Of a stretch of DNA of 27,722 nt, positions 126 to 22,386 are shown piece after piece. A program made the translations under genes and the position numbers. This DNA comes from Pseudomonadota bacterium (GTDB lineage: Bacteria > Pseudomonadota > Alphaproteobacteria > Parvibaculales > Parvibaculaceae), in contig JAJXZC010000728.1 of assembly GCA_021780275.1 (NCBI GenBank), positions 1 through 27,722 of the forward strand, written 5' to 3'. Every line of letters starts with the position of its first letter. Position 1 is the first letter of the stretch. The notes under the pieces were generated by a model that saw only the letters and a list, made by a program, of their open reading frames with translations, was not told the DNA's origin and did no database searches.

Positions 126-851
126 CTAAGGAGAAAGCTTCTCGATCGCGCCGCCCGTCATCAATGCCGATTTCATGGACTGAATGATCGGCGCGGGATC
201 GACTCCGGAACTCGTGAGAAATTGCCACTTTGCAGGAGAAACGAGGTATTGTGCCACGCCCTCCTCGAACGCGAGCCTGGATTGAAATCGGACCCAGTCA
301 CGATAGCCCGGCGCCCTGAAGGCGAAAATGCGATCCATGAACATCCGATACGGCGCGTTGCCCAAAAGGCCAGCCGGACTGTTCCACTGTTTGCGAGCCG
401 TTTCCAACGCATGAAAGCTCGACGCGACGGCGAGGGCCTCTTCCATCATCCGATCCTCGCTGCCGCCAAGAAGATGCCGGCTGACGTCGCAGAAGTAGTG
501 GAAGCGTTCGTGCGCATAGGTTTTGTAGACGGCGACTGTCGCCAGCCGCTTCAATTCGCGTGGCTCGATGAGAAGCCCCGCACGACACAGACCCGCGACG
601 TTATGCCAGAAGAATGCACCAATCCTCTCCCAGTACAGGGTGATGCAGCCGGGACTCGCCATTGACCGGTATGTGCCGAGGAAGTCCTCGCCTTCCGACA
701 GCACTACCTCAGGCGTGGGCTCCATTCGCTCAATTTCGGATAAGTACGCATCCGACAAGCGAACTTGCTGAAAGCCACCTTCGTCGCCAATCAACGTCTC
801 TTGCGGCACCATCGCGAGGATTTTGCCTACGGCGGCATCAACAATGCTCAT
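126..851 (-). CDS. HEXXH metallopeptidase-like protein, uncharacterised
   Basis: A 241-residue protein with no family I can name. It carries HERFH at residues 114-118, an HEXXH zinc-binding motif, followed after exactly 18 residues by Glu137 in MEEALA. HEXXH-X18-E is the spacing of M1-type gluzincin peptidases, so His114, His118 and Glu137 could bind zinc with Glu115 catalytic. No signal peptide or membrane segment is evident, so it is probably cytoplasmic. The ATG at 851 is preceded by GGAGAG with 5 bases of spacing. It lies 89 bp downstream of the PD-(D/E)XK nuclease gene on the same strand and is probably the third gene of that operon. The fold is not proven and the motif could be fortuitous, but its position in the helix-like segment AHERFHYF is convincing. 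A processing or effector protease in a defence operon is an inference. Confidence 0.72.
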   Translation of the reverse strand: MSIVDAAVGKILAMVPQETLIGDEGGFQQVRLSDAYLSEIERMEPTPEVVLSEGEDFLGTYRSMASPGCITLYWERIGAFFWHNVAGLCRAGLLIEPRELKRLATVAVYKTYAHERFHYFCDVSRHLLGGSEDRMMEEALAVASSFHALETARKQWNSPAGLLGNAPYRMFMDRIFAFRAPGYRDWVRFQSRLAFEEGVAQYLVSPAKWQFLTSSGVDPAPIIQSMKSALMTGGAIEKLSP

Positions 852-940
852 CCAAACTCTCCGCCGAAAAGCGCATCAGGGTCGTATTTTTTCGTCGGCA
901 AATCTCTATCTCGCATCGCGCGTTGTCATACGCATGGCCG

Positions 941-2194
941 TCAAGAGTCGCTCTTCGCAGGTATCAATTTTTTTGCGCAATCGCTTCCGTGGATTCCAGC
1001 GGGAACGGGAACAAGCGCGTCATGCAATTTATGCGCAAAGCCGATGATTTTTTGGCGCAAGGAACCATCGAGAATTGCGATCCAAGGCGTTATCGCATCG
1101 ACCCAATTGTCCTCAACAGCCAGCAGTTCCTCTTTGAGGTTTGCCTCTTTTTCCCATATGTACCATGGAGATCGCTTCCCATTGCCTAGAATTCTAACAA
1201 GGTTTGAGCGAATATCGTCATCGGCGTTCTTGCAGTTGGCGGGATCAGCGTCATTCGTTTTGACAGCGCCGAATATCAAATTTCGGTAGTCCGACGGCGC
1301 ACAAAACTGAAATCGAGCCGCATACCTTGTATAATCGTCGAACCTTATTGTGAAGTAATTGTGTTCTTTGCAGAACCACTCCAGCATCCATCCCGCGCCT
1401 GAAACATCTTCCTGCAATTGAAATTGTAGCTTCTCTATAAGTTGCTTTTTCGCTACGCTTGCCGCTTGCGCGACAGATAGCGCTGTATTCAGCATTTCCG
1501 TCGATGAGATTGCAATCGAGGCGATATGATGAATGCCGGTCATATTTTGAATACCTTGATAATTTAATCGAATATAGTCGGAGAAGTCGGCCATAAAAGT
1601 CCGCACCTTATCGGACCTGCAATCTTTCCGGCATGCGTCCAGCCAGTCGGCGATTTCAGCGTAGGAAAGACAAACCAATTGGCGGCGTTCGCGCAATGCC
1701 TTGCATTCAGCTTGTTCGATGCTTCCGGTCGTAGGAGGTCGGCCATTGGGTGTCAGGTAAACAAGCACGAACTCCTGACGCGCCTCGTTCTGTAGCTGAT
1801 CAATGTAATCCCGAACTTGCCGGGGCTGATCGAGGGCCCACAATTTGTTCTCGATCCCAATGACAAATCGAGGTGATTTCACCACAATGTCGATGCGGCG
1901 GTTAAAATTGCTGATGGCGTCCGTCTTGGATTCCGTCTTGACGGCGATGCGCCCAGTCGTCTCCCAGTCGAAACCGAGGACCTTCAAAAAAGCATCGAGG
2001 AAAAGCGCGCCCTGCGCATGCTCGGCCTCCACGTCTAATAGCCAAGCAAGAATTGATGAGATTTTATTCTCTCCCGGCTCGATAAGGTTGAAAACATTAA
2101 AACGTGGCGACAGAGTCGCCGCTGATGCGTCATGTGCAAACTGAAGTGCACGAAGGCGACCGTGCATCTCGGATAGAAAATTCTCGACATTCAT
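941..2194 (-). CDS. PD-(D/E)XK nuclease superfamily protein
   Basis: A 417-residue protein matching the PDDEXK_4-type pattern. The N-terminal segment has IEPGENKISSILAWLLD (residues 38-54), followed by the nuclease core RIDIVV (Asp102), then GIENK (Glu115, Lys117), and a QxxxY helix (Gln126 to Tyr130). These are the metal- and phosphate-handling residues of the restriction-endonuclease fold, so DNA cleavage is the expected activity. The C-terminal ~200 residues are not recognisable and may recognise the target. The ATG follows AAAGGA about 10 bases upstream and sits 22 bp after the AAA+ gene stop, which indicates co-transcription. The coding sequence is visibly more AT-rich than its neighbours (for example around 960-1000 and 2040-2110), suggesting separate acquisition. 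Relatives occur in phage-defence islands; the target and partners here are unknown. Confidence 0.8.
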   Translation of the reverse strand: MNVENFLSEMHGRLRALQFAHDASAATLSPRFNVFNLIEPGENKISSILAWLLDVEAEHAQGALFLDAFLKVLGFDWETTGRIAVKTESKTDAISNFNRRIDIVVKSPRFVIGIENKLWALDQPRQVRDYIDQLQNEARQEFVLVYLTPNGRPPTTGSIEQAECKALRERRQLVCLSYAEIADWLDACRKDCRSDKVRTFMADFSDYIRLNYQGIQNMTGIHHIASIAISSTEMLNTALSVAQAASVAKKQLIEKLQFQLQEDVSGAGWMLEWFCKEHNYFTIRFDDYTRYAARFQFCAPSDYRNLIFGAVKTNDADPANCKNADDDIRSNLVRILGNGKRSPWYIWEKEANLKEELLAVEDNWVDAITPWIAILDGSLRQKIIGFAHKLHDALVPVPAGIHGSDCAKKLIPAKSDS

Positions 2195-2216
2195 TTCTGA
2201 TTCGTCCTTTGAAGGC

Positions 2217-4238
2217 TCAAAAACCTATTTTCCTTCTGAGCGACTGAGGTTTGGCGTTCACTTCGTCTTCCAGCCATCTTGCTGCTTGCAATGGATCGCG
2301 AACTCCCAAAATCTCCGCCTTGCGGGCGACAACCGCAAAATCCCCGGGGGTTAGCAACTCCAGCTTGAGGATAGACCCGGGCGCCTCGACGCCGAAAGCC
2401 CGAATGAATGCTGCGGCGATTTGTCCTGCGTCCATTGGTAGAAAGCGAACCTTGAACAGAAAGCGCCTCGCCGTCGCTGGGTCGAGCACATCAGGCGCGT
2501 TGGTCGTGCATGCGAACGGCAGGGGATGCCGCTCCATCCAGGTCAGCATTTCATTGACCTGGGTGATCTCCCAGGAATGGCGCGCTGCGCCGCGATCCCG
2601 CAGCAGAGAATCCGCTTCATCCAGGATCAGGAAGGCGCCGAGATCGGCTGCTTCCTCGAAGGCGGCGGCGATCGCCTTTTCCGACTCGCCGAGATAGCTC
2701 GACGCCAGATTGGAATAGCGCTTCTCCAGGACCTCAAGTCCAAGCTCCGTCGCCAGATGGCGGGCATAGGCCGACTTGCCGGTGCCGGTCGGCCCAGACA
2801 GGCAGAAAGACAAGGCTTTGGACGACACCACCTTGATCTTCTCGGTCAAGGCGAGCAGATCGACGTCGGCTCGGCTCAGAGAGGGGTCAAAGACGATTGG
2901 CGCCGCCGGCGGCGCGATCTCGTCGAAACCCATCGCCTTCATCCCACCGCTCAGAATTTGCAGCGCGTCTTCTCCCGAACCGTGCATGCGCGCGGCAGAC
3001 AGGAGGGCGTTCTCGATCAATGCCGGCGCCGCCGGCAAGCGCGCTAATTGACCGATGGCTTTCAGGTCGAGGTCGATCCTGGCGCGACTGGCGACGCGTT
3101 CGACAATTCTTTGTCGGACCGCAACGCCCGGGCGGGGAAAACGCACGACCAGATTCATTCGCCGCACCACCGCCGGCCCAAGGCGCGAAAGATTGTTGGT
3201 GATCCAGATCGTCGGCACGCGCGTCTGCTCAACGAGGCGGTTCATGAAAACCTTTGAGCCGTGACGCGTCGAGGCGTCGTCTTCATCGCCGCCCGCGAAC
3301 AGATCGTCAGCTTCATCGACGACGACAATCATTTTTCCCGTGGCGGCGCCCAATTCGGTGGCGATCATGAGGGCGGCGACCCGCTCGCGGCGATTGGGTT
3401 CGTTGGCCTGCTTGTCGGCCTCACCAACGAAATGAACGCCGCGCCTTACGCGCGTGCCCAGTGTCTTGGCGAATTCGCTCTTGCCCGTGCCGGGCGGCCC
3501 ATAAAGCAAGATATTCGCGCCCTGGCCCTCGCTGTTTTCCACGATGCGTGCAGCGAGGTCACGCGACGCCCCGATATGCGTAAAGTCTTCCCATTCCAGC
3601 GTCGCATGACGGGCCAAGCCCAAAAGTTGGTCGCGAACTGCGCGCGCCGACAACCTCCGCATGGAGATGATCTGCTCGACAGTATCCGTAAGGCTCAAAT
3701 TTTCATTCGAATCCATCTCCACAAGGCCGAAACGGAACAAGGCGCCGTCCTTGCGCAGATCGCGCATGTCGATCCCGGGGCGGAAGACCGTGCGAAGCTC
3801 CTTGAGGTCGAAAGCTTGCTGACGAGTCCGGTACCGCCACGAGCCATTGGCGGCGGCAAGGAGTTCATTGCACATCCTATGTCGCGAAGCGCGCGCCAGG
3901 AGCGCGAGTAGGTAGCCCTGAGACGAAGTCAGTCCGCAACACTTGACGAAGAAATCAATGCGTCTTTGCAGTGGCGATGGGGCGGGCTCCGGCTCGCGCC
4001 CTTGCGCCAATGCAGAGGCACGCCAGGCTCGCCATTCCTCTCGTCGCACCCGCATGGATTCGATCGGCGTATCATACGGGTAGTCGCGTTCTTCAAGGCG
4101 CGGAAGCCGCAGACTGCGTCCATTGGATCTGATCCAGGTGAGAAAGTCGGATTCGACATCTGGCGCGGCGTTGCAGAGTTTCTCACCAAGCAGTGCACAA
4201 AAATATTGTCGGATGGCCCAACGATCGTGATCGTGCAT
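2217..4238 (-). CDS. Tandem AAA+ ATPase
   Basis: A 673-residue cytoplasmic ATPase with two AAA+ modules. The first has Walker A GPPGTGKS (residues 247-254), Walker B VVVDEADD (305-312) and an arginine pair at 359-360. The second has GPTGTGKS (482-489), LILDEADS (537-544) and an arginine pair at 591-592. Residues 1-220 form a helical N-terminal domain without a recognisable signature. The overall plan recalls Cdc48/FtsH-like two-ring remodellers, but the substrate is unknown. I chose ATG at 4238 over the ATG 60 bases upstream because AAGGA lies 8 bases before it and the extra 20 residues are low in order. It is first in a leftward operon with a PD-(D/E)XK nuclease and an HEXXH protein, divergent from a WYL regulator. 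A motor driving the nuclease or protease in a defence system is an inference. Confidence 0.88.
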   Translation of the reverse strand: MHDHDRWAIRQYFCALLGEKLCNAAPDVESDFLTWIRSNGRSLRLPRLEERDYPYDTPIESMRVRREEWRAWRASALAQGREPEPAPSPLQRRIDFFVKCCGLTSSQGYLLALLARASRHRMCNELLAAANGSWRYRTRQQAFDLKELRTVFRPGIDMRDLRKDGALFRFGLVEMDSNENLSLTDTVEQIISMRRLSARAVRDQLLGLARHATLEWEDFTHIGASRDLAARIVENSEGQGANILLYGPPGTGKSEFAKTLGTRVRRGVHFVGEADKQANEPNRRERVAALMIATELGAATGKMIVVVDEADDLFAGGDEDDASTRHGSKVFMNRLVEQTRVPTIWITNNLSRLGPAVVRRMNLVVRFPRPGVAVRQRIVERVASRARIDLDLKAIGQLARLPAAPALIENALLSAARMHGSGEDALQILSGGMKAMGFDEIAPPAAPIVFDPSLSRADVDLLALTEKIKVVSSKALSFCLSGPTGTGKSAYARHLATELGLEVLEKRYSNLASSYLGESEKAIAAAFEEAADLGAFLILDEADSLLRDRGAARHSWEITQVNEMLTWMERHPLPFACTTNAPDVLDPATARRFLFKVRFLPMDAGQIAAAFIRAFGVEAPGSILKLELLTPGDFAVVARKAEILGVRDPLQAARWLEDEVNAKPQSLRRKIGF

Positions 4239-4319
4239 GATTGACGTCCTTCTTGACACGGACAAGGAATGCCACGTTGATGCGTCAGGATCGGACATGG
4301 CATCGTTGGGCTGCTAGAC
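4239..4319. promoter_or_regulatory. Divergent promoter region, AAA+ operon / WYL gene
   Basis: An 81-bp intergenic region separates the start of the leftward AAA+ operon from the rightward WYL gene. A TTGACA hexamer at 4253-4258 could be a -35 element for the WYL gene, but its -10 partner about 17 bases on is poor. The AAGGA ribosome site of the AAA+ gene also lies here. WYL proteins commonly control divergent neighbours, so this is the natural operator region; no clear inverted repeat was found in it. Confidence 0.4.
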
Positions 4320-5402
4320 ATGAGACTTGAAAAAACCACCGCCATTCTCAAGTTGGCGCGCGCGCTGGCGAGCAATTGGGAAGGCCTGACGCTTGATGAA
4401 ATGGCTGACTTTATCGGCGCAGGCCGTCGCACCGCCGAGCGCATGCGCGATGCGGTTCAGGAAGTCTTCGGCCCGCTCGATTGCCGTGAGGATGGACGGA
4501 AAAAGCGCTTCCGCATCTCAGCGCGTAGCCTCGATCGTTTTGTCAAAACCCCGACCATCGACGAGCTGACCGAACTGGAAAACGCCGCCCGTGCGCTCGA
4601 AAATGGTCGGGCGCCGGACCGTGCCGCGCACCTTCATTCATTACGCGACAAGATCGGCGCCAGCCTGCGTGACGAGGATCGTCGACGTCTCACCCTCAAT
4701 GTCGAGGATCAGATCCGGGCCGAGGCGTTGGCCTGTCAGGTCGGCCCGAGACCCATGTCCGACGCTTCCGTCCTGTCGTCCTTGCGTCAGGGCTTGCTGG
4801 ACCAGCGGGTCATTCGTTTCAATTACGGCGGTGACGACGGCGAGGCGCCGCGCTGGCGCAAGGTCGTTCCCTACGGCCTGCTATTCGGGCCGCGCTATTA
4901 CCTTGTCGCTAGCGTCAAGAGTCGGCCCGGCCCCGTGTTGTTTCGTCTCGATATGATCCACGACGTGAAGGTGACTGACGAACCCGGCGCCCCGCCGGAC
5001 AATTTCGACCTCAAGGTTTTTGCGGAGCGCTCCTTTGGCGTGTTCCAGGAAGAGCCGGAAGACGTGGTGTTGCGCTTCTCGCCCTCGGCCGCACGCGACG
5101 CCCGCGCCTATCGGTTCCATCCGACGCAAAGTTTCGAGGATGAACCTGACGGCTCGCTGACGGTGCGCTTTCACGCGGGTGGTCTGCTGCAAATCGCCCA
5201 TCACCTGATGACCTGGGGCGAGGCGGCGACGATCGACGCGCCGCCGCGTTTGCAAGAGATCATGCGGGAACAGGTCGAAGCCCTTTATCGTCATTATGTC
5301 GCGGCCGCGCCGTCCATCGGCTCGAAACGCCGTCCGTCAACGCGGAACTCGACGAAGTCGTCGTCGCAGATGACACCGATCACGAGCGAAAGCGGCTCCT
5401 GA
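4320..5402 (+). CDS. WYL-domain transcriptional regulator
   Basis: A 360-residue regulator. Residues 1-65 form an N-terminal helix-turn-helix (LTLDEMADFIGAGRRTAERM). A central WYL domain (about 150-220) has the signature IRFNYG and the WYL-equivalent stretch RYYLVAS at 192-198. A WCX-type C-terminal domain runs to about residue 328 (VVLRFSP, HLMTWGE, MREQVEALYRHY). WYL domains bind nucleic acid or nucleotide ligands and are frequent repressors of defence operons. The gene is divergent from the AAA+/nuclease/peptidase operon, which it probably controls. The last ~30 residues are Ser/Thr/Lys-rich and outside the family pattern; they lie in the 109-bp overlap with the convergent gene ending at 5294, so they are probably a non-conserved extension. 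Confidence 0.88.
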   Translation: MRLEKTTAILKLARALASNWEGLTLDEMADFIGAGRRTAERMRDAVQEVFGPLDCREDGRKKRFRISARSLDRFVKTPTIDELTELENAARALENGRAPDRAAHLHSLRDKIGASLRDEDRRRLTLNVEDQIRAEALACQVGPRPMSDASVLSSLRQGLLDQRVIRFNYGGDDGEAPRWRKVVPYGLLFGPRYYLVASVKSRPGPVLFRLDMIHDVKVTDEPGAPPDNFDLKVFAERSFGVFQEEPEDVVLRFSPSAARDARAYRFHPTQSFEDEPDGSLTVRFHAGGLLQIAHHLMTWGEAATIDAPPRLQEIMREQVEALYRHYVAAAPSIGSKRRPSTRNSTKSSSQMTPITSESGS

Positions 5403-5677
5403 AAATAGGGGCTGCCAGCCGCCGTTTCGCTGGGATCGAAAATCGGCGCCGGCAAGACAGAAGTCACGATGGCCGGTTCGCCATAGTCCGGGAATTTCCG
5501 GTTCTTGAGGCCGGGCTTCCACACCACGAATTGGCCTTTGGCGAACGCGTGATATTGATAAAGTCGTTCCGCCAGCTCGGCGAGCATCTGCTTGTGCGAC
5601 GCGGCCGGATCATTGGATTCCGACGTCGATGCGACACGGAGCGCCGGAAATTGCCGATCAGATTTTTCATTGCGCAT
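5294..5677 (-). CDS. Conserved hypothetical protein
   Basis: A 127-residue protein of unknown function. Residues 25-47 form a helix (ASHKQMLAELAERLYQYHAF). The rest is a compact beta-rich domain with FVVWKPGLKNRKFPDYGEPAIV (written in two parts: FVVWKPGLKN at 50-59 and DYGEPAIV at 64-71), SPYFQEPLSLVIGV (89-102) and a closing RRFEP (116-120). The alternation of hydrophobic strands suggests an SH3-like barrel, which is an inference. The ATG at 5677 has GGGGA 7 bases upstream; a TTG 39 bases further upstream is a weaker start. It overlaps the 3' end of the WYL gene by 109 bp on the opposite strand and is divergent, 38 bp away, from the next unknown gene. I recall similar proteins beside AAA+ genes but cannot name the family. 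Confidence 0.62.
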   Translation of the reverse strand: MRNEKSDRQFPALRVASTSESNDPAASHKQMLAELAERLYQYHAFAKGQFVVWKPGLKNRKFPDYGEPAIVTSVLPAPIFDPSETAAGSPYFQEPLSLVIGVICDDDFVEFRVDGRRFEPMDGAAAT

Positions 5678-5715
5678 TCGGTTGTCCCCAACATGCCTGC
5701 TGCCAGGAATGAACA

Positions 5716-6153
5716 ATGAAAGTTGGAGGTGACAAAAGCGGACGCATTGACGATTGTGCGGAGACGCACGTCGGCATTTTCTGGCTGATCAAGACGAGTG
5801 GCGGTTCGCAATTGCTCGCGGCTTCCTGTCCCTTGTCGATCGCCGAGCCCTATGGCGATTTCCAGAACTTCGACCGTGGTCATTATCAGATTTGGCAAGG
5901 CTGGCGTCACTCGCGCGAGTTGGACGCCGCCGCGCGCAGTGTCGTCGTTGCCTACGAATATGAGGATTGGCCTCGGGGCAGGATCGTTTTCAATCAGACG
6001 ACGGCGCGTTTCATCCTCTACGCCGACCGCAAGCTGCTGCAACCTTCAGCGATCGCCGCAATTCAGCGACGATTTGCGCTGCCGGCCGACCGGACCGACA
6101 TCGAAACCGATTTCCATTATCAAAGCGCGGAGTCGCCTGGCTCTCTCGCCTGA
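5716..6153 (+). CDS. Conserved hypothetical protein
   Basis: A 145-residue soluble protein of unknown function. It starts at ATG 5716, with AGGA seven bases upstream. The N-terminal half contains IFWLIKTSGG and LLAASCPLSIAEPYGDF. The C-terminal half has YEYEDWPRGRIVFN (80-93) and RFILYADRKLL (98-108), then a helix and an ETDFHYQS tail. The WPRGRIVF/LYADRKL pattern looks conserved and beta-strand rich, but I cannot attach a function. It is divergent from the 127-residue gene and its last 34 bp overlap the convergent DUF2779 gene. The tight packing of overlapping genes on alternate strands suggests a compact island carried as a unit. Confidence 0.62.
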   Translation: MKVGGDKSGRIDDCAETHVGIFWLIKTSGGSQLLAASCPLSIAEPYGDFQNFDRGHYQIWQGWRHSRELDAAARSVVVAYEYEDWPRGRIVFNQTTARFILYADRKLLQPSAIAAIQRRFALPADRTDIETDFHYQSAESPGSLA

Positions 6154-7757
6154 CAATCGCCGCCAGCAGCGAGTTCCCGCAAGGCTTCGTGCGCCATCAC
6201 CATGGCAAGTGTGTCGCGTTCGCAATAGGCGAGCAACTGGTTGCGTAATCGCTGGACCTCATCTCGCGCGGAGGCCACGCCGCTGGCGATTTGCAAGAAC
6301 GCCCCAGCCGCAGCAACGCCGTCGGCTATTCCTTCGAGGTTGTCGTAGCTCATGTCCGGGCATAGAGCTGGCCCGACCGTCTTGATCGAGAAGCTAAAAT
6401 CGAAGGCCGGAAGATAGACCGCGCTGCGCACGACAGGCAGCAGATCGGCAAGTCGGGCAATCACCGCCTCCAGGGATGCGCAAAGATCAGGGAAAATGGC
6501 GGCGAGTTCCCGCAGCCGTGACTGCTCGTAAGCCGAGTAGACGATGATCGGCAAATTGGAATCTTCCAGCGCCGCGATCAATGTCTCAGCGAACTGTCGC
6601 CGGGGATCGCCGGTCCCGTCCGCCAGAAACTCGCGATGAGCAAGCTTGCCCGAGCCGTCACGTTCGTGGAGCGACCATTGAAAAGGCAATGTTTGATAGG
6701 GTCGCGTGCCCTCATAAAGCGGAATTGGCGGCATCATCGCTTCGAAATCAAGGTAGCAGGCGGGCGGCCCGAAAGGCACCAACAGGCGAGGCAGATCACT
6801 GGCGATGAAAGGCTTGCCGCTGACAATCGTGTCGCGGATAACCGACTGCTTGCCCGTGAGCGGGAAATCTGCCGGGATTGCCGAAACCGCTTCGATCCCG
6901 CGTGCCTTCAACAGCGCAGCGTTCGCTTCTGAGAGGCGCGGCAGGCGCATGACCCAGTCGGAGGGTTTTCCCGCTGTGCAATCCTCCCAAAACTCGCAGC
7001 CGTAAGGTGAATTGCATTGTCGGCCTATCTCGACAGCCGGAGCCTGATTTTTGGTCAGGCATTCGCGCATGCCCGGCAATCGGGCGAGAATCTCGCCTAT
7101 CCTCTTCTCAACTTCCGCGGCCAAGTCGACACGCGCGAAATAAGCGTTCCAATCAATGCCCTCACGGCCGCGGACATAAGAGTTATTCACGTGCAGAAGT
7201 TCGACCGAAGAGACCGCGACGCCGGCACCCCGTAGAACATGGACCTGAAGCGCGATGTCGTCGATGAAATGATCCTTCGGGCCAGTGCTGCTTTTGACTT
7301 CCCTCAGGCCCCAGGTTCGATCAGGCAACCGTTCCAGCACATCCACGCGAACGCGAATTCCTTCGTATTCAAACGCAGCCTCAAAAATCGCCGGCGCCCC
7401 GTAATCGCCCATCAGGGCGGCTGTCCTCGCGACCGCAGCGGCGTGCGCCCATGGTTCCTCGTCGATCAGCACGCCGCCAGGAAAAAGCAAATGGGCTTTG
7501 ATGCCAATTTGATGGCCGACTTCCATTGGGGAGCCAACCTCAGGCGGTTCGTACGGCGGCGGTTCATTGACCAGAAGCCAGAGCCGGCGCAGGCATTGCA
7601 GGCCGGCGATATAACGCGACTTGGTGAGATGCGCGCCCAAATAACACTCCGCTGATTTTGAATTCCTGCCATCATTGGTTATCGCTGCCAAGGTCGCAAT
7701 AGTGTATACCGCGGTGCGCGGGTCACATGCGGCCGCTTCTGACGTAATTAATTGCAT
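6120..7757 (-). CDS. DUF2779 protein: Cas4-like Fe-S nuclease fused to DEDD exonuclease fold
   Basis: A 545-residue protein with two nuclease modules. The N-terminal part resembles Cas4/RecB nucleases: TKSRYIAGLQCLRRLW (Cys55), RVDVLE (Asp139), REVKSS (Glu153, Lys155), then Cys248, Cys254 and Cys260. One early and three late cysteines are the layout of a 4Fe-4S cluster in Cas4 and AddB. The C-terminal DUF2779 part has YLDFEA (Asp337, Glu339), SAYEQSRL, and YCERDTLAM (Asp514), consistent with an RNase H-like DEDD exonuclease. ATG 7757 gives 545 residues, but the family similarity begins near residue 44. A TTG at 7640 with GCGGAG six bases upstream is a credible alternative start giving 506 residues. 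No cas1/cas2 or CRISPR array is visible. Role in DNA end processing or defence is inferred. Confidence 0.83.
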   Translation of the reverse strand: MQLITSEAAACDPRTAVYTIATLAAITNDGRNSKSAECYLGAHLTKSRYIAGLQCLRRLWLLVNEPPPYEPPEVGSPMEVGHQIGIKAHLLFPGGVLIDEEPWAHAAAVARTAALMGDYGAPAIFEAAFEYEGIRVRVDVLERLPDRTWGLREVKSSTGPKDHFIDDIALQVHVLRGAGVAVSSVELLHVNNSYVRGREGIDWNAYFARVDLAAEVEKRIGEILARLPGMRECLTKNQAPAVEIGRQCNSPYGCEFWEDCTAGKPSDWVMRLPRLSEANAALLKARGIEAVSAIPADFPLTGKQSVIRDTIVSGKPFIASDLPRLLVPFGPPACYLDFEAMMPPIPLYEGTRPYQTLPFQWSLHERDGSGKLAHREFLADGTGDPRRQFAETLIAALEDSNLPIIVYSAYEQSRLRELAAIFPDLCASLEAVIARLADLLPVVRSAVYLPAFDFSFSIKTVGPALCPDMSYDNLEGIADGVAAAGAFLQIASGVASARDEVQRLRNQLLAYCERDTLAMVMAHEALRELAAGGDCQAREPGDSAL

Positions 7758-7880
7758 TTATAAATGGGCTAGCAGATTCAACACCTTTATGCGGTCAAGG
7801 AGATCGTAATCTGAGATCGATATGCGTTTCAGAATGCGCAAAAAAGAACGCGCTAGGCGTTCGAACAGACGGTGGTGGGC
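7758..7880. promoter_or_regulatory. Divergent intergenic region with operator-like inverted repeat
   Basis: This 123-bp region lies between the leftward DUF2779 gene and the rightward HNH gene and must hold both promoters unless the DUF2779 start is the internal TTG. It is locally AT-rich (7755-7800). A perfect inverted repeat, GAACGC-GCTAG-GCGTTC, sits at 7846-7862, just upstream of the HNH start, and could be an operator. No convincing -35/-10 pair was identified. Confidence 0.35.
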
Positions 7881-9014
7881 ATGGCCTTAGATCGTGACGT
7901 CTTCACGCGGCAATTTGATATCTTCAAGAATCGTATCGCAAAAAAGGCCCGGCAGCCCTTCGTGTCTTTCAAAGAGGGTCTCCCGCTGGAATGGGAAGGC
8001 TACAAAGAGCAAATCCGCCTGAAGGCAATCGCTCGCCTGAGCGCAACGACTTGGCAGGCCAGTACGATTGGAAAAGGTGAGATTCTAAAACGTCTGATAT
8101 CGGCAATCGAAATTCCGCCGGAAGGAAACGACGATTACAATAATCTCGTCCGGTGGAGAGATGAAAACGGCCATGAGAGCCGATCACACCACATCCTCCT
8201 CGACGCGAGAAATGACTCCGCGTTGCGGGAAGATATCGAGGCCTGGGCATTCGAATTTTATCGTATGGATGCCGATCCGGGGACGGCATTCGAAAAACTG
8301 CGCGAGATCGTGGGGTCTCGATACGACCTCTTAGCCTACCTATTTTTTCTCAAAGATTCACAGACGTTCATGCCGATAGGCGCAAAGACCTTCGACAAGG
8401 CCTTTGAGGAATTGGAAATGGATGTCAAAACCGCGTGGAAATGCTCGTGGTCGAATTATCAGTTGTATCTCGACGCGCTACAAGAAATTCGCGACGCTCT
8501 GGGCGAGATGGACGGTCTGGCCGACGTGCGGCTTGTCGACGCCCATTCTTTTTGCTGGCTGCTAGTCCGGCCGGAAATGGAAAGACCTGACGTACTCTTT
8601 GTCGCCAGCGCTAAAGGCAAAGCTACAAACGCTAAACTCCATGGAGCGATGGAAAAATCTATCTACGAAATGGTCGAAATGACCCTAGCGACGGTCCGCA
8701 ACTCGAACGGGCAGCTCGTAACCTCAACCAAAAAGGTCAAGGAGCTTTGGATGTCGAAAAGCAGCCTCGACACTTATGTGAGGGCGTTGCTGGAGCAACA
8801 AGGCGGCAAGTGCAACTTAACCCAGCTCAACTTGCAATTTCGCGGCGAACATACAGACGAGGCGCTTCTCCCCTCGTTGGATCGGATTGATAGCGACAAG
8901 CAATACGAGGATGGCAATCTTCAGGTTGTCTGTCGCTTTATAAATAAGTGGAAAAGCGCCACACCAGACGAGGAGTTTCGTCGACTTCTGTCATTGGTTC
9001 GTGGCGGGATGTAA
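7881..9014 (+). CDS. HNH endonuclease with uncharacterised N-terminal region
   Basis: A 377-residue protein from the ATG at 7881 (two GTG codons lie just upstream; none has a strong ribosome site). Residues 145-230 (LLAYLFFLKDSQTFMPIGAK, then YQLYLDALQEIRDAL and DAHSFCWLL) resemble the region before the nuclease in restriction-type proteins, which is a recollection of pattern only. Residues 303-360 form an HNH-type core: GGKCNLT, then SLDRIDS (332-338), then YEDGNLQVVCRFINKWK (342-358). The usual CxxC zinc pairs are incomplete, with single cysteines at 311 and 351. Asp334 occupies the usual His position, as in phage-type HNH proteins. The gene is noticeably AT-richer than the plasmid backbone that follows, a sign of transfer. 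Probable DNA nuclease, perhaps restriction or defence. Confidence 0.75.
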   Translation: MALDRDVFTRQFDIFKNRIAKKARQPFVSFKEGLPLEWEGYKEQIRLKAIARLSATTWQASTIGKGEILKRLISAIEIPPEGNDDYNNLVRWRDENGHESRSHHILLDARNDSALREDIEAWAFEFYRMDADPGTAFEKLREIVGSRYDLLAYLFFLKDSQTFMPIGAKTFDKAFEELEMDVKTAWKCSWSNYQLYLDALQEIRDALGEMDGLADVRLVDAHSFCWLLVRPEMERPDVLFVASAKGKATNAKLHGAMEKSIYEMVEMTLATVRNSNGQLVTSTKKVKELWMSKSSLDTYVRALLEQQGGKCNLTQLNLQFRGEHTDEALLPSLDRIDSDKQYEDGNLQVVCRFINKWKSATPDEEFRRLLSLVRGGM

Positions 9015-9190
9015 CTTCGATTGCCGAAAGCGTGTGGTCAAGCCAGCCTTCGATTAGACGATTCTACGACAAGCCGCCAATTTGATCCGCCAAGATGGGA
9101 CCGAAAGAGAGAAGTCCCGCCGAGTTATTTTTCATTCCCATCGTTGCGCCTTTATCTCAATCGTTTCGAGAGGCAGAGGGCGGAACAGGT

Positions 9191-9241
9191 TCCGTGACGG
9201 AGTGAGTGTCGAGAGAAGAGTCTCCCGCGCCCGTCACGGAG
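9191..9241 (+). promoter_or_regulatory. Leader stem-loop overlapping the DUF932 ribosome binding site
   Basis: A perfect 10-bp stem pairs 9191-9200 (TCCGTGACGG) with 9231-9240 (CCGTCACGGA). Its loop contains a second small hairpin, GAGA (9211-9214) with TCTC (9221-9224). The GGAG ribosome site at 9238-9241 lies in the right arm of the outer stem. In RNA this would hide the site, implying translational control; in DNA it could also be a protein-binding palindrome. Related leaders precede the ParB-like and strawberry-notch genes. Confidence 0.6.
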
Positions 9242-9250
9242 TTGATTGCC

Positions 9251-10447
9251 ATGACCAATATTGAGATTTTGGAGCGCCGCCCGGAAACGTCCGGCGGCTA
9301 CAAGGTAGATGTGTCGCGCGGCCAGCGGGTTGGGCGCGTCTCGTCCGAATGGTTTTCTCGGCCCGACGATGAGCGCTATCTGTCGTTGAGCGAGCTTGCT
9401 CGCTCGGTTGGCGGCCGATCCCAGCGCAGCCGCACGCGCATGGTCGAGACTTCGTTGATCCATGTAGAGGCGAACCGCAGCGAGCCGGAGCGCCTGTCGC
9501 TGGCGCTTCCCGGCGCCTCCGCGCCGGTCGCGCCTACCCATTGGAGCTTCGGCCAGCTCGCGAGCCTTGTCGGCGCGCCGGCCGCCTATCTTCGCCAGCT
9601 CCCGGCCGCACTTGCCGGCATCAATCTGCAATATGGTCTTACGCAAAATCGCGGCGAACAGGTCAAGACGCTCGAAACCGAGGACGGCCGGGTCGAACTT
9701 CGCGCCGTCACCGGCCCGGATTACGGTCGCATCTTCGACCACGAACTGGTCGAAGCCGTGCAGCGCATCGCCGGGGATGGCACCGGCGACACGCGATGGA
9801 AAGTGCCTGGCGTGCTCGACTGGTCGACCGGAATTTACAATCCGAGAGTCGATATCACCAAGGACACGACCACACTTTATGCAAGCGATCGCGACGTCTT
9901 CCTGTTCCTGGTCGACGATCTGAATCCGATTGAAGCGGGACGCCTGCCGGATGGCTCGCCCGATATTTTCTTCCGCGGCTTCTACTGCTGGAATTCCGAG
10001 GTCGGCGCGAAGACGCTGGGCATCGCCAGCTTCTATCTGCGTGCAGTCTGCCAAAACCGCAATCTCTGGGGCGTGGAGGATTTCGAGGAGATCACCATCC
10101 GCCATTCCAAGTACGCGGCCTCGCGCTTCGCGCATGAAGCCGCGCCAGCCCTGCTGAATTTCGCGAACTCGTCGCCCATGCCCTTTATCAACGGCGTCAA
10201 AGCGGCGCGCCAAAAGATCGTGGCGCGCAATGACGAGGACCGTGCGGAATTTCTGCGCAAGCGCGGCTTCTCGAAATCCGAGACCGGCAAGATCATCGAC
10301 GCCGTCCTTTCTGAGGAAGGCCGGCCGCCCGAGAGCATTTTCGATTTCGTGCAGGGCATCACGGCGGTTGCGCGCGACAAGCCTCATCAGGATGCGCGCC
10401 TCGACTTGGAAGCCAAGGCGAAAAAGCTCCTCGATCGCGCCGCTTGA
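9251..10447 (+). CDS. DUF932 domain-containing plasmid protein
   Basis: A 398-residue protein of the DUF932 (phage/plasmid-like) family, recognisable from THWSFGQLASLVGAPAAYL (96-114), LQYGLTQNRG, the central FLVDDLNPIE segment, FFRGFYCWNSEVG and the FYLRAVCQNRNLWG block. The biochemical role is not established. Such proteins are frequent beside antirestriction and ParB-like genes on conjugative plasmids. I chose ATG 9251 because GGAG lies nine bases upstream and upstream residues are not family-like; a GTG at 9206 would add 15 residues. The gene is preceded by a ribosome-site-masking stem-loop and followed 29 bp after its stop by a strong terminator, so it is probably transcribed alone. Confidence 0.88.
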   Translation: MTNIEILERRPETSGGYKVDVSRGQRVGRVSSEWFSRPDDERYLSLSELARSVGGRSQRSRTRMVETSLIHVEANRSEPERLSLALPGASAPVAPTHWSFGQLASLVGAPAAYLRQLPAALAGINLQYGLTQNRGEQVKTLETEDGRVELRAVTGPDYGRIFDHELVEAVQRIAGDGTGDTRWKVPGVLDWSTGIYNPRVDITKDTTTLYASDRDVFLFLVDDLNPIEAGRLPDGSPDIFFRGFYCWNSEVGAKTLGIASFYLRAVCQNRNLWGVEDFEEITIRHSKYAASRFAHEAAPALLNFANSSPMPFINGVKAARQKIVARNDEDRAEFLRKRGFSKSETGKIIDAVLSEEGRPPESIFDFVQGITAVARDKPHQDARLDLEAKAKKLLDRAA

Positions 10448-10476
10448 ATATGACCGCTTTCATTCGCTGAGCCGCT

Positions 10477-10517
10477 GCGCCGCCCTTTTAGAGCAAGAGG
10501 GCGGCGCTTCGCTTTTT
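10477..10517 (+). terminator. Rho-independent-type terminator after DUF932
   Basis: A perfect 10-bp stem (GCGCCGCCCT at 10477-10486 with AGGGCGGCGC at 10498-10507), an 11-base loop, and a T5 tract at 10513-10517 five bases after the stem. It separates the DUF932 unit from the ParB-like gene. Confidence 0.75.
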
Positions 10518-10562
10518 GGCGGGTTTGGGCTGAGAGAGAGGCTCTCGGCGCCCGTCGAGGAG
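10518..10562 (+). promoter_or_regulatory. GAGAGA leader of the ParB-like gene
   Basis: An inner hairpin GAGAG-AGG-CTCTC (10534-10546) lies within a weaker outer pairing of GGCGGG (10518-10523) with CCCGTC (10551-10556, one G-U pair). The ribosome site GAGGAG (10557-10562) follows directly, eight bases before the ATG. The layout and the string GCGCCCGTC before the ribosome site match the DUF932 leader. Confidence 0.5.
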
Positions 10563-10570
10563 TAAAGGTC

Positions 10571-12709
10571 ATGGCGACTGCCGTTCAGAAAATCATACTC
10601 GCGTCCGCGCGCGATATTCCCTTCAACAAGCTGGCGTTGAGTCAGTCGAACGTACGCCGCGTCAAGGCCGGCCAGTCGATCGAGGAACTGGCGGAATCGA
10701 TCGCGCGCCGGGGCCTCATCCAGAGCCTGCATGTCAGGCCCATCCTTGACGCTGACGGGGTTGAGACGGGAACGTTCGAAGTGCCGGCGGGCGGGCGCCG
10801 CTATCGGGCGCTGGAAATGCTCGTCAAACAGAAGCGCCTCAACAAGACGGCGCCGGTCCCCTGCATCGTGTCCGACGCCAAAGGCAACATTCTGGTCGAT
10901 GAGGTCTCCTTGGCGGAAAACATCGAGCGTGCGCCGCTGCACCCGCTCGATCAGTTTCGCGCTTTTCAGGCCATGCGCGAAAAGGGCATGACTGAGGAAG
11001 CCATAGCGGCGGCGTTCTTCGTCGGTGTCAATGTCGTGAAACAGCGCCTGCGCCTGGTCGCCGTCTCGCCCAATCTGCTTGACGTCTATGCCGATGACGG
11101 CATGACGCTTGAGCAATTGATGGCCTTCACCGTCGCGCCCGACCACGCGCGCCAGGAACAAGTTTGGGAAGCCGTCCGCAACGGCTGGCAGAAGGAGCCC
11201 TATCACATCCGTCGCATGCTGACGGAAAGCGCGGTGCGCGCCTCCGACAAGCGCGCCATGTTCGTCGGCGTTGACGCATATGAAGCGACGGGCGGCGTCG
11301 TGCTGCGCGATCTCTTTCAGTCGGACGATGGCGGCTGGCTCCAGGATGTCGCGCTTCTCGATCGGCTGGCGTCGGAAAAATTGAAAGCCGCGGCTGACGA
11401 AGTCGCCGCCGAGGGCTGGAAATGGATCGAGGCAGCGTTGAACTTGCCATATGGAATCACATATGGACTGCGCCAATTGTCCGGCGCGCCCGTTGAACTC
11501 AACGACGACGAAAAGTCCGCCTTCGAAGCCTTGCAGGCGGAGCGGAACGAACTTGAAGCGCAGTACGAGGCTGCGGACGAACTGCCCGAATACGCCGATC
11601 TGCGCCTCGGCGAAATCGAAGCCGAGTTGGAGAAAATCAATCATCGCCTGCTGCGCTATGACGAAGCTGAAATCGCGCGCGCCGGCGCCTTTGTCAGCGT
11701 CGGCGCCAATGGCGCCCTCGTCGTCGATCGCGGCTATGTGCGACCCGCCGACGAAGCGCCGGAACCGATTGAACCGGTCGCCGCCGATGAAAGCGACGAT
11801 GTGTCGGCCAACGCGCCGACGCCTGAGCAGATCAGCCGACCTGCCGTCATCGTTTTGAATGGTGAAACTTTGCCGACCGAAGACGAGGAGGAGGACGGCA
11901 TCAAGCCGCTGCCCGACCGTCTCGTCGCAGAGCTGACGGCCCATCGCACACTGGCGTTGCGCGACGCGCTGGCGAACCACCCGCATGTCGCGATGACCGC
12001 CTTGCTGCACAAACTGGTGTCGGACAACTTTCTCCACCCGGCGGCGCCAGGCTGCATAGAAGCCAGCGTCCGGCATATCTATTTCCCCGCCCAGACCGAG
12101 GAGTTGAAAGACTGCGCCTCGGCGCAAGCCATCGATGAGCGGCGATTGAATTGGGGCGATCACATCCCCGCTGGCGACGAAAATCTTTGGGATTGGCTGA
12201 CGGCGCTCGACGATGGCCATCGCATGGCTCTGCTCGCCCATTGCGTCAGCTATGGCGTCAACGCCCTTCACGAAAGGCCGAACCCATATAGCGGCGCCGG
12301 CGTGAGCGAACAGGGATTGAAACTGCGAATGACCCAGGCCGACCGCTTGGCGCAAGCAACCGGCCTCGACATGGTGGAAGCGGGATGGAGACCGACAGTC
12401 GGCAATTATCTCGGCCGCGTCACCAAGGCGCGCATCCTCGAAGCCGTCCGCGAAGGCGCCGGCGAGAAAGCCGTTCAGCTCATCGGGCATCTTAAGAAGG
12501 GCGACATGGCGAAGGAGGCCGAACGGTTGCTCGCCGACACCGGCTGGCTGCCGGAGCCGTTGCGCGGATCGGGCGCTGGCGCACCGGCCATCGCAGAGGC
12601 GACCACAGACGCCGAGGGCGAAGACCGTGGCGAACTGCCGGATTTCCTTACGGAGGATGACGAAGGCGAGCCTGAGGATGAAACGGCGGCTCCGCTCGCC
12701 GCTGAATGA
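10571..12709 (+). CDS. ParB/RepB/Spo0J-family plasmid protein (long form)
   Basis: A 712-residue protein with an N-terminal ParB nuclease-like domain. It has LSQSNVRRVKAG (23-34), LAESIARRGLIQSLHVRP (40-57), AGGRRYRAL (73-81) and the box LAENIERAPLHP (114-125). A helix-turn-helix follows (about 138-165, MTEEAIAAAFFVGVNVVKQRL). True partition ParB proteins are about 300 residues. Here a further ~500 residues follow, including an acidic, coiled-coil-prone stretch (about 315-370) and an acidic C-terminus. No parA is adjacent; the only ParA-like gene is 12 kb away. A CTP-binding ParB-like role in DNA handling or regulation is likely, and classical partition less so. ATG 10571 has GAGGAG eight bases upstream. 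A long antisense frame runs through the gene but lacks family features. Confidence 0.87.
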   Translation: MATAVQKIILASARDIPFNKLALSQSNVRRVKAGQSIEELAESIARRGLIQSLHVRPILDADGVETGTFEVPAGGRRYRALEMLVKQKRLNKTAPVPCIVSDAKGNILVDEVSLAENIERAPLHPLDQFRAFQAMREKGMTEEAIAAAFFVGVNVVKQRLRLVAVSPNLLDVYADDGMTLEQLMAFTVAPDHARQEQVWEAVRNGWQKEPYHIRRMLTESAVRASDKRAMFVGVDAYEATGGVVLRDLFQSDDGGWLQDVALLDRLASEKLKAAADEVAAEGWKWIEAALNLPYGITYGLRQLSGAPVELNDDEKSAFEALQAERNELEAQYEAADELPEYADLRLGEIEAELEKINHRLLRYDEAEIARAGAFVSVGANGALVVDRGYVRPADEAPEPIEPVAADESDDVSANAPTPEQISRPAVIVLNGETLPTEDEEEDGIKPLPDRLVAELTAHRTLALRDALANHPHVAMTALLHKLVSDNFLHPAAPGCIEASVRHIYFPAQTEELKDCASAQAIDERRLNWGDHIPAGDENLWDWLTALDDGHRMALLAHCVSYGVNALHERPNPYSGAGVSEQGLKLRMTQADRLAQATGLDMVEAGWRPTVGNYLGRVTKARILEAVREGAGEKAVQLIGHLKKGDMAKEAERLLADTGWLPEPLRGSGAGAPAIAEATTDAEGEDRGELPDFLTEDDEGEPEDETAAPLAAE

Positions 12710-13207: not shown

Positions 13208-13215
13208 TTTTGCCC

Positions 13216-16200
13216 ATGAACATCATGTCGCCCGTGACGCGCGCGCCGGCAGCGCTCGGCTCGTCAGCCTCCGCGATCTATGCCGCCGCCGAGGCGCTTC
13301 GCTCTCGTCTCGAAACCGGCGCCGCCATCGATGCGGCCTCGTTGCGCGCCGCCATGGAACAAGCTTTCGGCGCCTCGGATGCATCCGGCGCCTGGAGTTG
13401 GAAAGACGGCTATGACGCCTGCGAAGTCGCCACCGTCCTGTTCCTGCAAAAATATGGCAAGGCCCTGTTCCACAAGTCGCCGTCGACCCTGGCGCGCCTC
13501 GCCTCTCTGAACAAGATCGCCGGCCTTCTGCCGACCCACACCCGCCGCACCGAGGATAGCCAGGCCCTTCAGCAATTCTCGACGCCCGCACCGCTTGCCC
13601 TCGCGGCGCTGGCAGCGGCGGGCGTATCGCCGACCGATGTTGTCCTTGAGCCTTCTGCCGGCACAGGACTGCTTGCCGCTTTCGCGGAAATCGCCGGCGC
13701 GCGTCTCATCCTGAACGAATGGGCCGACCAGCGCGCCGATCTCCTTTCCCTGCTATTCCCGCAACATTCCGTGAGCCGTTTCGACGCGACGCAGATCGAC
13801 GATTATCTCGGCGTCGACGCCGCACCGACGGTCGTGCTGATGAATCCGCCCTTCTCCGCTTTGGCGCATGTCGAAGGACGAGTAGCGGACGCCGCCTTCC
13901 GCCATATCGTGTCCGCATTCAATCTTCTGGCGCCGGGCGGTCGCCTGGTGACAATCACCGGCGCCAATGTTTCGCCCGACGCGCCAGCCTGGCGCGACGC
14001 TTTCATTCGCTTGCAGGAGCGCGGCTCCGTCGTCTTCACCGCCGCTATCGCCGGTGCGGTTTATGCAAAGCACGGGACGACATTCCCGACGCGGCTCACC
14101 GTGATCGACAAGCGTCCGGCGCAAAATGCCAACGCGCTGCCGGCGTCAATTGGGCTGGCGCAGAATGTCGCGACATTGCTGGGCTGGATCGAGGATCACG
14201 CTCCTCCGCGGCTCGCCTCTCCTTTGGTTTCGGAGCCGCAACCACGCAAGTCTCCCGTCGCCGCGCGGAGACTTTTGCGTCCTGTGGCAAAGGCGCCCGT
14301 GCCGACCCGCCTGTCACTGATTGATCCCGAGGGCGTCGATCTCGCCTATGAGACCGTCGACTGGACGCAGCCCGAAGGCGCGCGACTGACCGACGCGATT
14401 TACGAGGAATACGGATTGCAATCGATCCGCATTCCGAAGGCTCAGCCGCATCCGACCAAACTTGTCCAGTCTGCGGCGATGGCAAGCGTTGCGCCGCCAA
14501 AGCCCGGCTATCGGCCAAAATTGCCTGCACGCGTCGTCACAGATGGCTTGCTGTCGGACGCCCAACTCGAAACCGTCATTTACGCGGGCGAGGCCCATGC
14601 CGATTTTCTTGCAGGCGCCTGGACGGTCGATGAGAACTTCGATGTCGTCAAAGCGGCGGCGAAAGGCGCCGAGGGCGCAATCCGCTTTCGCCGAGGCTTC
14701 ATGCTGGGCGACGGGACTGGCGCGGGCAAAGGCCGACAATCCTCCGGCATCATCCTCGACAATTTCTTGCGCGGGCGCCGCAAGGCTTTGTGGATCAGCA
14801 AGTCCGACAAGTTGATTGAAGATGCCCAGCGCGACTGGGCCGCGCTTGGCATGGAGCGCCTGCTGGTCACGCCGCTGTCGCGCTTTTCGCAGGGCAAGAA
14901 AATCGCGCTGGCGGAAGGCATTCTTTTCACGACCTATGCGACCTTGCGGTCGGATGATCGCGGCGAGAAAATTTCGCGCGTAAAACAGATCGTCGAATGG
15001 CTGGGCGCCAATTTCGACGGCGTGGTGATTTTCGACGAGAGCCACGCCATGCAGAACGCCGGCGGCGGCCAAGGCGAGCGCGGTGAGGTTTCAGCCTCGC
15101 AACAGGGGCGCGCCGGCCTGCGTCTCCAGCACGCCTTGCCCAATGCGCGCGTCGTTTACGTTTCCGCGACAGGGGCGACCTCCGTCCACAATCTCGCCTA
15201 TGCGCAGCGGCTCGGCCTATGGGGCGGCGAGGATTTTCCTTTCGCGACGCGCGCCGAATTCGTCACGGCGATCGAGGCCGGCGGCGTCGCCGCCATGGAA
15301 GTTTTGGCGCGCGATCTCAAGGCGCTCGGCCTCTATACCGCCCGCTCGCTCTCCTATGATGGCGTCGAATATGAATTGGTCGAGCACAAGCTTACCGACG
15401 ATCAGCGCCGCATTTACGATGCCTATGCCGGCGCCTTTGCGGTCATTCACAACAATCTCGACGCCGCCATGGAAGCCGCCAATATCACCGGCTCCGAGGG
15501 CACGCTGAACCGGCAGGCCAAATCCGCCGCGCGCTCAGCCTTCGAAAGCGCCAAGCAGCGTTTCTTCGGCCACCTGCTCACCAGCATGAAGACGCCGACA
15601 CTCATCGCGTCGATCGACCACGATCTTGAAGCCGGCCATGCCGCGGTGGTGCAGATTGTTTCGACCGGCGAAGCGCTGATGGAGCGACGCCTGGCGGAAA
15701 TCTCCCCCGAGGAATGGAACGACGTCCGCGTCGATATCACGCCTCGGGAATACGTGCTCGACTATCTCGCCCATTCCTTCCCGGTCCAGCTTTATGAGCC
15801 GTTCACCGACGCCGAGGGCAACCTGTCATCGCGCCCCGTCCATCGCGACGGCCAACCGGTCGAAAGCCGCGAGGCCGTGGCGCGGCGTGACCGCTTGATC
15901 GAACATCTCGCTTCGCTTCCGCCGGTTCCAGGCGCCCTCGACCAGATCGTCCAGCGTTTCGGCGCCGACGTGGTCGCCGAAGTCACCGGCCGCTCGCGCC
16001 GTATCGTCCGCAAATCTTCCGTTGCCGGCGATCGCCTGGTTGTCGAGAACCGCGCGGCCTCGGCCAATCTCGCCGAGACCGCCGCGTTCATGGACGACAA
16101 GAAGCGCGTCCTGGTGTTTTCCGACGCGGGCGGCACCGGGCGCAGCTATCACGCCGACCTGTCCGCCCGAAATCAGCGCTTGCGCGTCCATTATCTCTTG

Positions 16201-18575: not shown

Positions 18576-18888
18576 CCGGAACGAGGAGGAAACTCGCGGA
18601 CCTTCATCGCAAGTCGCGTGCGTCCATGGCTGCGCCTGACAGAACCGCGCTCTTGGCCTTCCAAAGGGGCGAACGGCTGGCAAGCGGTCCGAACCGGCAA
18701 CAGCTATGGCCAACGATTTTCCGCCGCCCCTGACGGGGCTTTGCATCGCGAAACAAAATCGCCTGCCTTCGCCGTCCTCCGCTCCGCTTCGGCCCTGCGC
18801 TTTGCTTCGGGTGCAAATTCGGTCCGCCCGCCAGCTTCGGCGCCCACGAAGGCCGCGACGGGCGCGGTCCAATCAGACGGAGCCGATC
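18576..18888 (+). promoter_or_regulatory. 313-bp non-coding leader upstream of DUF2493
   Basis: No gene is supported here. The right half (about 18690-18795) is a diverged copy of the sequence before DUF736 (about 21710-21805). The best-conserved core is 18771-18795 against 21781-21805, 25 positions with two mismatches, beginning GCCGTCCTCCGCT in both. It is rich in short CGCTTCGG-type self-complementary runs, suggesting a structured RNA leader or ssDNA element. It is open in frame with DUF2493 but lacks protein-like composition. Confidence 0.5.
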
Positions 18889-19815: not shown

Positions 19816-19836
19816 TGCGCCGCCTCCGCGCAGTGC

Positions 19837-22236: not shown

Positions 22237-22386
22237 CATTCAGCGCCCGTGGAAAACAGCATGGCCGGCTGCGCGAAAAACCCGGTGCCTTGAATTTTCT
22301 GTTTGTGCATAACTCGGCATTTAGACGCCTGGAATATATCGCGGCTTTTCGCGCGCGTTCGAGCGCCGTTACGTCTCAAGGATTTC

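Follow-up and report, generated by a model that had tools for sequence, protein, structure and literature searches.

An AAA+ ATPase and a WYL regulator form the conserved core of a modular, apparently undescribed defence-type locus with exchangeable nucleases and a candidate metallopeptidase family

Do an ATPase, a nuclease and a metallopeptidase-like gene that lie in a row opposite a WYL regulator form one undescribed system, or have they come together on a mobile element as independent cargo? We asked this of such a locus in a contig from a Pseudomonadota bacterium of the Parvibaculaceae (JAJXZC010000728.1, assembly GCA_021780275.1), of which the whole analyzed stretch of 27,722 nucleotides is referred to as the window. 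An initial annotation of the window had proposed the three genes as one candidate defence system beside a WYL regulator. We find that the conserved core of the locus is the AAA+ ATPase with the WYL regulator and that nucleases are exchanged around this pair; the locus appears to be a modular form of defence-type locus that has not been described, with one new protein family. The reading that we favor, at a probability of roughly 0.55, is an undescribed modular defence-type system directed against foreign DNA and carried as cargo of a conjugative element, with WYL control, an AAA+ motor, a swappable nuclease and an occasional linked metallopeptidase.

Three of the four genes lie on the minus strand: a candidate gluzincin-like metallopeptidase with an HEXXH motif (241 aa, 126..851), a PD-(D/E)XK nuclease (941..2194) and a tandem AAA+ ATPase (673 aa with an N-terminal part of ~200 aa, 2217..4238). 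The WYL gene lies divergently on the plus strand (4320..5402). The HEXXH and nuclease genes are separated by 89 bp (852-940), and the nuclease and AAA+ genes by 22 bp (2195-2216). The AAA+ reading frame is open up to 4298; because Met21 is where the sequences of all 20 other aligned relatives begin, the start of the gene is most likely 4238, which leaves 81 bp before the WYL start at 4320. Gene places, strands, order and gaps are thus as first annotated, and the domain assignments were confirmed by Pfam with catalytic motifs intact. The AAA+ protein matches PF00004 (1.7e-35) in two stretches, the mark of a tandem AAA protein, and the Walker A and Walker B residues of both domains are invariant across 21 aligned rows. 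The regulator matches both WYL (1.4e-12) and WCX (1.1e-15) above their cut-offs; a possible N-terminal helix-turn-helix gives a weak HTH_17 score (E 0.054, under the cut-off). The nuclease belongs to PDDEXK_4 (PF14281, 4.8e-30, 105.3 bits against a cut-off of 22.3), and its catalytic residues E42, D102, E115 and K117 are invariant in 5/5 aligned rows, the window counted.

We compared the window with related loci, cited here by L numbers, in a set of 92 that comprises the best 80 genome loci of 471 relatives from an AAA+ alignment scan, 5 plasmid loci, 6 viral-contig loci and the window itself; two pairs among them carry identical AAA+ proteins. A clustered WYL gene is present in 66 of the 92 loci and a WYL-profile match in 74. 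Of the 80 genome loci, 63 have a WYL gene somewhere in the locus, 53 of them at a distance of no more than 500 bp from the AAA+ gene; in the remaining 17 none was found. The 53 near genes are located downstream on the same strand (n = 36), divergently upstream (n = 15) or otherwise (n = 2), and 10 lie further away. No WYL gene was found in 14 control stretches, together ~200 kb, taken from genomes that carry the AAA+ gene; as the profiles derive from the same loci, contig ends truncate many of these and the control set is small, we regard the AAA+/WYL linkage as a strong trend, not a calibrated test.

By record title, the AAA+ relatives (best 80 of 471) come from many Alphaproteobacteria and also from Desulfuromonas, Gemmatimonadota, Nitrospira, Binatia and a Latescibacteria bacterium. 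The Latescibacteria locus (L046) holds two AAA+ family genes (10004-12085, 18686-20767) with a PDDEXK_4 gene between them. In the six viral-contig loci (IMG/VR, L006-L011), AAA+ relatives are accompanied by a WYL-profile match in 6/6, and the core thus travels also with prophage-like elements. An AAA+ lineage of acetic acid bacteria (L018, L019, L027, L029, L031, L041) has no WYL-profile match in the stretch examined and has the conserved neighbours C11 and C16 (protein clusters are given C numbers); it is perhaps a domesticated branch.

The nucleases around this core vary. At least one of five nuclease profiles was found in 42 of the 92 loci and none of the five in 50, with AddA-like and AddB-like proteins in 19 loci each, DUF2779 in 14, TM0106 in 8 and PDDEXK_4 in 8 (weakly at L002), the window included. 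Elsewhere the next gene of the operon encodes HNH_2 (L102) or REase-ARP/PDDEXK_13 (L069). Exchange is also seen among the four AAA+ proteins nearest to that of the window on the tree (L012, L102, L103, L013): PDDEXK_4 follows AAA+ at L012, the HNH_2 nuclease stands in its place at L102 (9783-10700), and at L013 the contig stops past AAA+. At L103 (10241-12514) the same place is taken by proteins that are GIY-YIG-like and PD-(D/E)XK-like by eye, with no Pfam match. Such readings by eye (L103, L036, L034, L085, L062, L074, L081 and two L113 genes) had no Pfam support where scanned and are included in no count.

The PDDEXK_4 family occurs at the AAA+ locus more often than expected. In 49 genomes with AAA+, chosen in list order, we found 17 PF14281 genes, of which 4 are by their coordinates at the AAA+ locus (L012, L014, L046, L055), against ~0.1 expected from locus length as estimated by hand, and 13 are elsewhere. 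The L064 genome, chosen for holding the gene, was excluded; with it there are 18 matches in 50 genomes.

Other partner types recur as well. Profiles for ADP-ribosylglycohydrolase (ARH) and for the C5 protein, which the record of L003 calls HEPN, each match in 14 of the 92 loci, and a calcineurin-like phosphatase profile in 8; the ARH protein that was scanned also has a phosphatase domain. Tight operons at L073, L076 and L091 (~10-21 kb each) contain AAA+, WYL, ARH (and the HEPN-type C5), AddB-like and AddA-like genes, tying the AddAB-like pair to the AAA+/WYL core; the AddA-like gene is followed by ZacA at L073 and by another gene elsewhere. Azaca genes occur near AAA+, WYL and AddAB-like genes at L082 (2-2682; ZacA 3.2e-137, ZacB 8.7e-143, PADLOC). 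The ZacA profile matches in 4/92 loci (L082, L061, L073, L087), with ZacB scored at L082.

The HEXXH protein is rare. A search of 5.8 billion proteins returned 3 relatives besides itself with the single sequence and 5 more by profile. Among 72,556 plasmids there is one, on pTs417 of Candidatus Thiodictyon syntrophicum (L109); three further queries gave that record alone, which is also among the AAA+ search matches. Genome searches with a profile that included the Thiodictyon sequence yielded 1/146 genomes in the class of a Desulfuromonadales genome and, with at most 7 candidates scored per genome and misses therefore possible, 1/369 in the class of a Pseudomonadales genome and 0/385 in the class of the L012 genome. 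Searches at the level of the order returned the same two genomes (1/3 and 1/136). The profile found no relative in two further phyla (0/24 and 0/64 genomes), and single-sequence searches gave 0/248 and 0/5 genomes. Searches of viral contigs found no relative either. None of the 49 AAA+ genomes searched whole contains the gene, which is present in the 50th record, the Thiodictyon plasmid.

Where the HEXXH gene does occur, it lies near AAA+: in the window and in 3/3 other readable contexts (L109, L111, L113), all of which were found by HEXXH protein or profile searches alone. On the Thiodictyon plasmid, WYL is divergent from a small gene (141 aa), AAA+ and a 1659-aa protein (7020-11999), after which HEXXH follows 1 bp later; the 1659-aa protein resembles TmtA of Tiamat (2.5e-70) and has an ATP-binding domain of the sacsin type. 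At L111, in a gammaproteobacterial genome, AAA+ ends 166 bp before HEXXH on the same strand, on a 3.1-kb contig too short to show WYL. At L113, in a Desulfuromonadia-class genome, the AAA+ and WYL genes diverge, and HEXXH comes after WYL on the WYL strand, ~1.9 kb from the AAA+ start; beyond it lie DUF2779, a protein of cluster C56, which includes a metallo-beta-lactamase-fold protein, and further along ARH. HEXXH strings in general are not enriched near AAA+ (11/503 near genes vs 21/760 far genes), and most AAA+ loci lack the HEXXH gene. An M8-like peptidase adjoining AAA+ at L052 was dropped, as its sequence is by eye that of a secreted lipoprotein-like protein.

In a FastTree phylogeny of 100 AAA+ proteins, those with a linked HEXXH gene fall in three parts: the window with L012, L113 with L033 and L047, and L109 with L111 in an outlying clade. 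The HEXXH label changes 3 times, with at least 2 changes forced by starred branches, in a comparison with 7 PDDEXK_4 rows only, in which shuffles did as well (236/500) and L109 and L111 carry a long-branch warning. This tree is compatible with repeated gain of the HEXXH gene as well as with one ancient gain followed by many losses.

The proposal that ATPase, nuclease and HEXXH protein are one system therefore stands in part. The HEXXH and AAA+ genes recur together, but the three genes do not form a constant set: under the co-occurrence check set for them beforehand, the exact trio AAA/PDDEXK_4/HEXXH is seen only in the window, with PDDEXK_4 in 8/92 loci and HEXXH in 0/49 AAA+ genomes. What holds under this check is the pairing of AAA+ with WYL, around which nucleases are exchanged and to which an HEXXH gene is occasionally linked.

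Searches of Pfam, NCBIfam, PADLOC and PHROGs gave no match to the HEXXH protein, and against the PDB by sequence both it and the nuclease match only at E 0.24 or worse. Gluzincins (clan MA(E)) have an HEXXH motif followed some 18 or more residues on by a glutamate, the third zinc ligand. The arrangement HEXXH-x18-20-EE is kept in 12/12 sequences of our protein, the window included, and all 12 thus have the downstream glutamate at gluzincin spacing (18-20). We regard the protein as a new family and a candidate gluzincin-like peptidase. It differs from M1-type gluzincin peptidases in being a small single domain without sequence match, and in structure the Z score of its model against them is too low and on a par with those for unrelated folds. 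The model used was built from 9 sequences, a weaker one from 4 sequences having a pLDDT of 74.4; neither model has a match at E<=0.001 in a viral fold library. Tentatively, and at odds clearly below even, the HEXXH protein could found a gluzincin-like family that depends on this AAA+ as its sole partner. The two would make up a bipartite unfold-and-cut immune protease, triggered when AAA+ engages a phage protein, and DNA would be attacked by the exchangeable nuclease of the locus (PDDEXK_4, Tiamat-like or DUF2779).

The related loci support a WYL-associated AAA+ operon in defence-type surroundings, with Azaca, Tiamat-like, ARH and HEPN-type genes as neighbours; by analogy with these neighbours, an anti-phage or defence role is suggested. 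We infer each biochemical step of the working proposed here. WYL would sit on the 81-bp divergent promoter and hold the operon low until an infection-derived ligand, a nucleic acid or nucleotide, frees it. The Cdc48-like tandem AAA+ would form a hexameric motor whose N-terminal part grips a phage or plasmid protein or nucleoprotein, and the ATPase would remodel this target and hand it to effectors, or activate them. The PD-(D/E)XK nuclease would then cut DNA and the gluzincin-like HEXXH peptidase cleave protein. The nuclease partners are exchanged between loci, and the peptidase would be an occasional extra effector that needs AAA+.

The peptidase could instead act on the regulator. ImmA/IrrE peptidases use HEXXH and cleave their repressors, and by analogy AAA+, WYL and nuclease may be the defence module and the HEXXH protein a signal-responsive antirepressor that cleaves WYL. 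The motif shared with ImmA/IrrE, the small single-domain protein, the presence of WYL in 3/4 contexts (window, L109, L113) and the position of HEXXH directly after WYL at L113, on the WYL strand, are consistent with this arrangement. However, most AAA+/WYL loci have no HEXXH gene (0/49 genomes), so WYL does not need it; the protein lacks any Pfam match; and at L111 it directly follows AAA+, on the contig too short to show WYL. We consider an antirepressor unlikely.

IetAS is an AAA+/protease pair, with the subtilase IetS, that was first known from plasmid incompatibility, and by the same token the present locus might serve mobile-element competition or plasmid stability and not phage defence. 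The window is a conjugative element with a TraG/VirD4-type protein and a TrwC relaxase, relatives lie on plasmids and viral contigs, and the second AAA domain resembles IetA (2.7e-27), the best named anti-phage AAA+ profile. As in IetAS, an AAA+ motor stands beside a protease-type gene, and IetAS is the nearest named AAA+/protease pair. Its features nevertheless fail in the window: the IetA profile NF042959 scores 88 bits against a cut-off of 510, the AAA+ has two AAA domains and not one, HEXXH takes the place of the subtilase, and Pfam scans of window proteins (9 + 9) show no subtilisin-type IetS protease. Related loci, moreover, hold relatives of the named anti-phage genes ZacA/ZacB and TmtA. 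Defence and competition are not mutually exclusive, and a role in competition in place of defence appears to us rather improbable.

Iyer et al. (2022; PMC9503650, section 3.8) predict conflict systems centred on ADP-ribosylglycohydrolase (ARG-centred) with WYL or Nudix regulators, phosphatases, restriction endonucleases (REases) linked to helicases, and swapped modules. The locus could be a variant of these with AAA+ as an overlooked component. The two resemble each other in the WYL regulator, the REase or nuclease modules, the phosphatases and the plan of a conserved core with swapped modules, and the same partner types occur at AAA+ loci (ARH 14/92, calcineurin-like phosphatase 8, AddA-like and AddB-like 19 each). 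REase-ARP was found once in 20 partner genes scanned, and at L113 ARH lies further along from HEXXH. On the other hand, 78/92 loci have no ARH-profile match in the stretch examined, and there is none among the open reading frames of the window, which ends 125 bp past the HEXXH gene. The core here is AAA+ with WYL, and neither AAA+ nor an HEXXH peptidase is named in that section, nor AAA+ in the other passages of PMC9503650 that were searched. We think such a variant doubtful. Least probable by far is coincidence, in which nuclease and HEXXH would be cargo unrelated to AAA+: defence islands do collect unrelated systems and 13/17 PDDEXK_4 genes lie away from the AAA+ locus, but HEXXH lies by AAA+ in 3/3 contexts outside the window, with tight spacing (1 bp to its 5′ neighbour at L109, 166 bp to AAA+ at L111), and PDDEXK_4 is found at the locus well above expectation (4/17 vs ~0.1). 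Each of the proteins has relatives elsewhere and their linkages recur, so the locus is more than chance.

The modular defence-type system thus remains our preferred reading, and the earlier view that the locus matches no named system is supported. Like Cdc48/p97 (VCP), the AAA+ is a tandem protein, and its best PDB relatives are VCP-like ATPases. It differs in its own N-terminal part and in its linkage to WYL and nucleases, and scores 60.7 bits against the TIGR01243 cut-off of 802.65. Tiamat is represented by the TmtA-like protein in the middle place of the Thiodictyon operon and Azaca by ZacA/ZacB near L082, and none of TmtA, ZacA and ZacB is found in ten window proteins scanned. The window nuclease matches the PADLOC candidate set PDC-S26 (9.9e-38), a likeness of the nuclease alone and not of the AAA+/WYL operon. 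Word searches of the open-licence PubMed Central literature found no description of the AAA+/WYL/nuclease/HEXXH set.

The predicted divergent promoter/operator region (4239..4319) contains a 17-bp block (4282-4298) that is kept in the intergenic region of the window and four close relatives, with the minus-strand consensus ACGTCCRATATTGACGT. Its arms, ACGTC and GACGT, flank 7 bases and are perfect in 3/5 sequences and degenerate in the window and L012. The block is a candidate for the WYL operator, as predicted from its conservation. Promoter and terminator scans did no better than shuffles (3 vs 2.9 and 10 vs 9.1).

Three further genes adjoin the locus beyond the coordinates first annotated. 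A small conserved protein of 140 aa with a WKPGLKNR motif (5294..5716, minus strand) overlaps the 3′ end of WYL in antisense by 109 bp (5294-5402); L012 shows a like overlap of 97 bp (8578-8949 vs 8853-9935). Its relatives occur at L012, L102, L103 and L108, and at L109 one sits between WYL and AAA+. The small gene between WYL and AAA+ at L014 and L016 (C24) has no match to this family. A second small conserved protein (145 aa, cluster C45, 5716..6153, plus strand) has relatives at the AAA+ loci L014, L015, L039 and L103, and a DUF2779 RecB-like nuclease follows (6120..7757, minus strand). Beyond it, a 380-aa protein (7872-9014, plus strand) has a C-terminus that resembles phage endonuclease families (PHROGs, 1.4e-12) and no Pfam match.

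The window as a whole looks like a conjugative element, alphaproteobacterial in character. Its backbone genes encode a DUF932-like protein, ParB, a strawberry-notch helicase, Toprim, a TraG/VirD4-type coupling protein (22303-24069) and a TrwC relaxase (26421-27620), and match 87 plasmid records, chiefly of Rhizobium, Mesorhizobium and Methylocystis, at 60-80% identity in 84/87. One stretch of the strawberry-notch helicase (13210-17541, plus strand) matches mad2 of the MADS defence set (2e-12).

If our reading is correct, the widespread AAA+/WYL pair would be the common chassis of many uncharacterized defence loci, carrying nucleases and a new peptidase family, and many orphan genes of defence islands would be explained together. 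It would also provide a directly testable bacterial case of a Cdc48-like motor that drives immune effectors, for which the linkage of HEXXH to AAA+ is a concrete hypothesis that is cheap to test.

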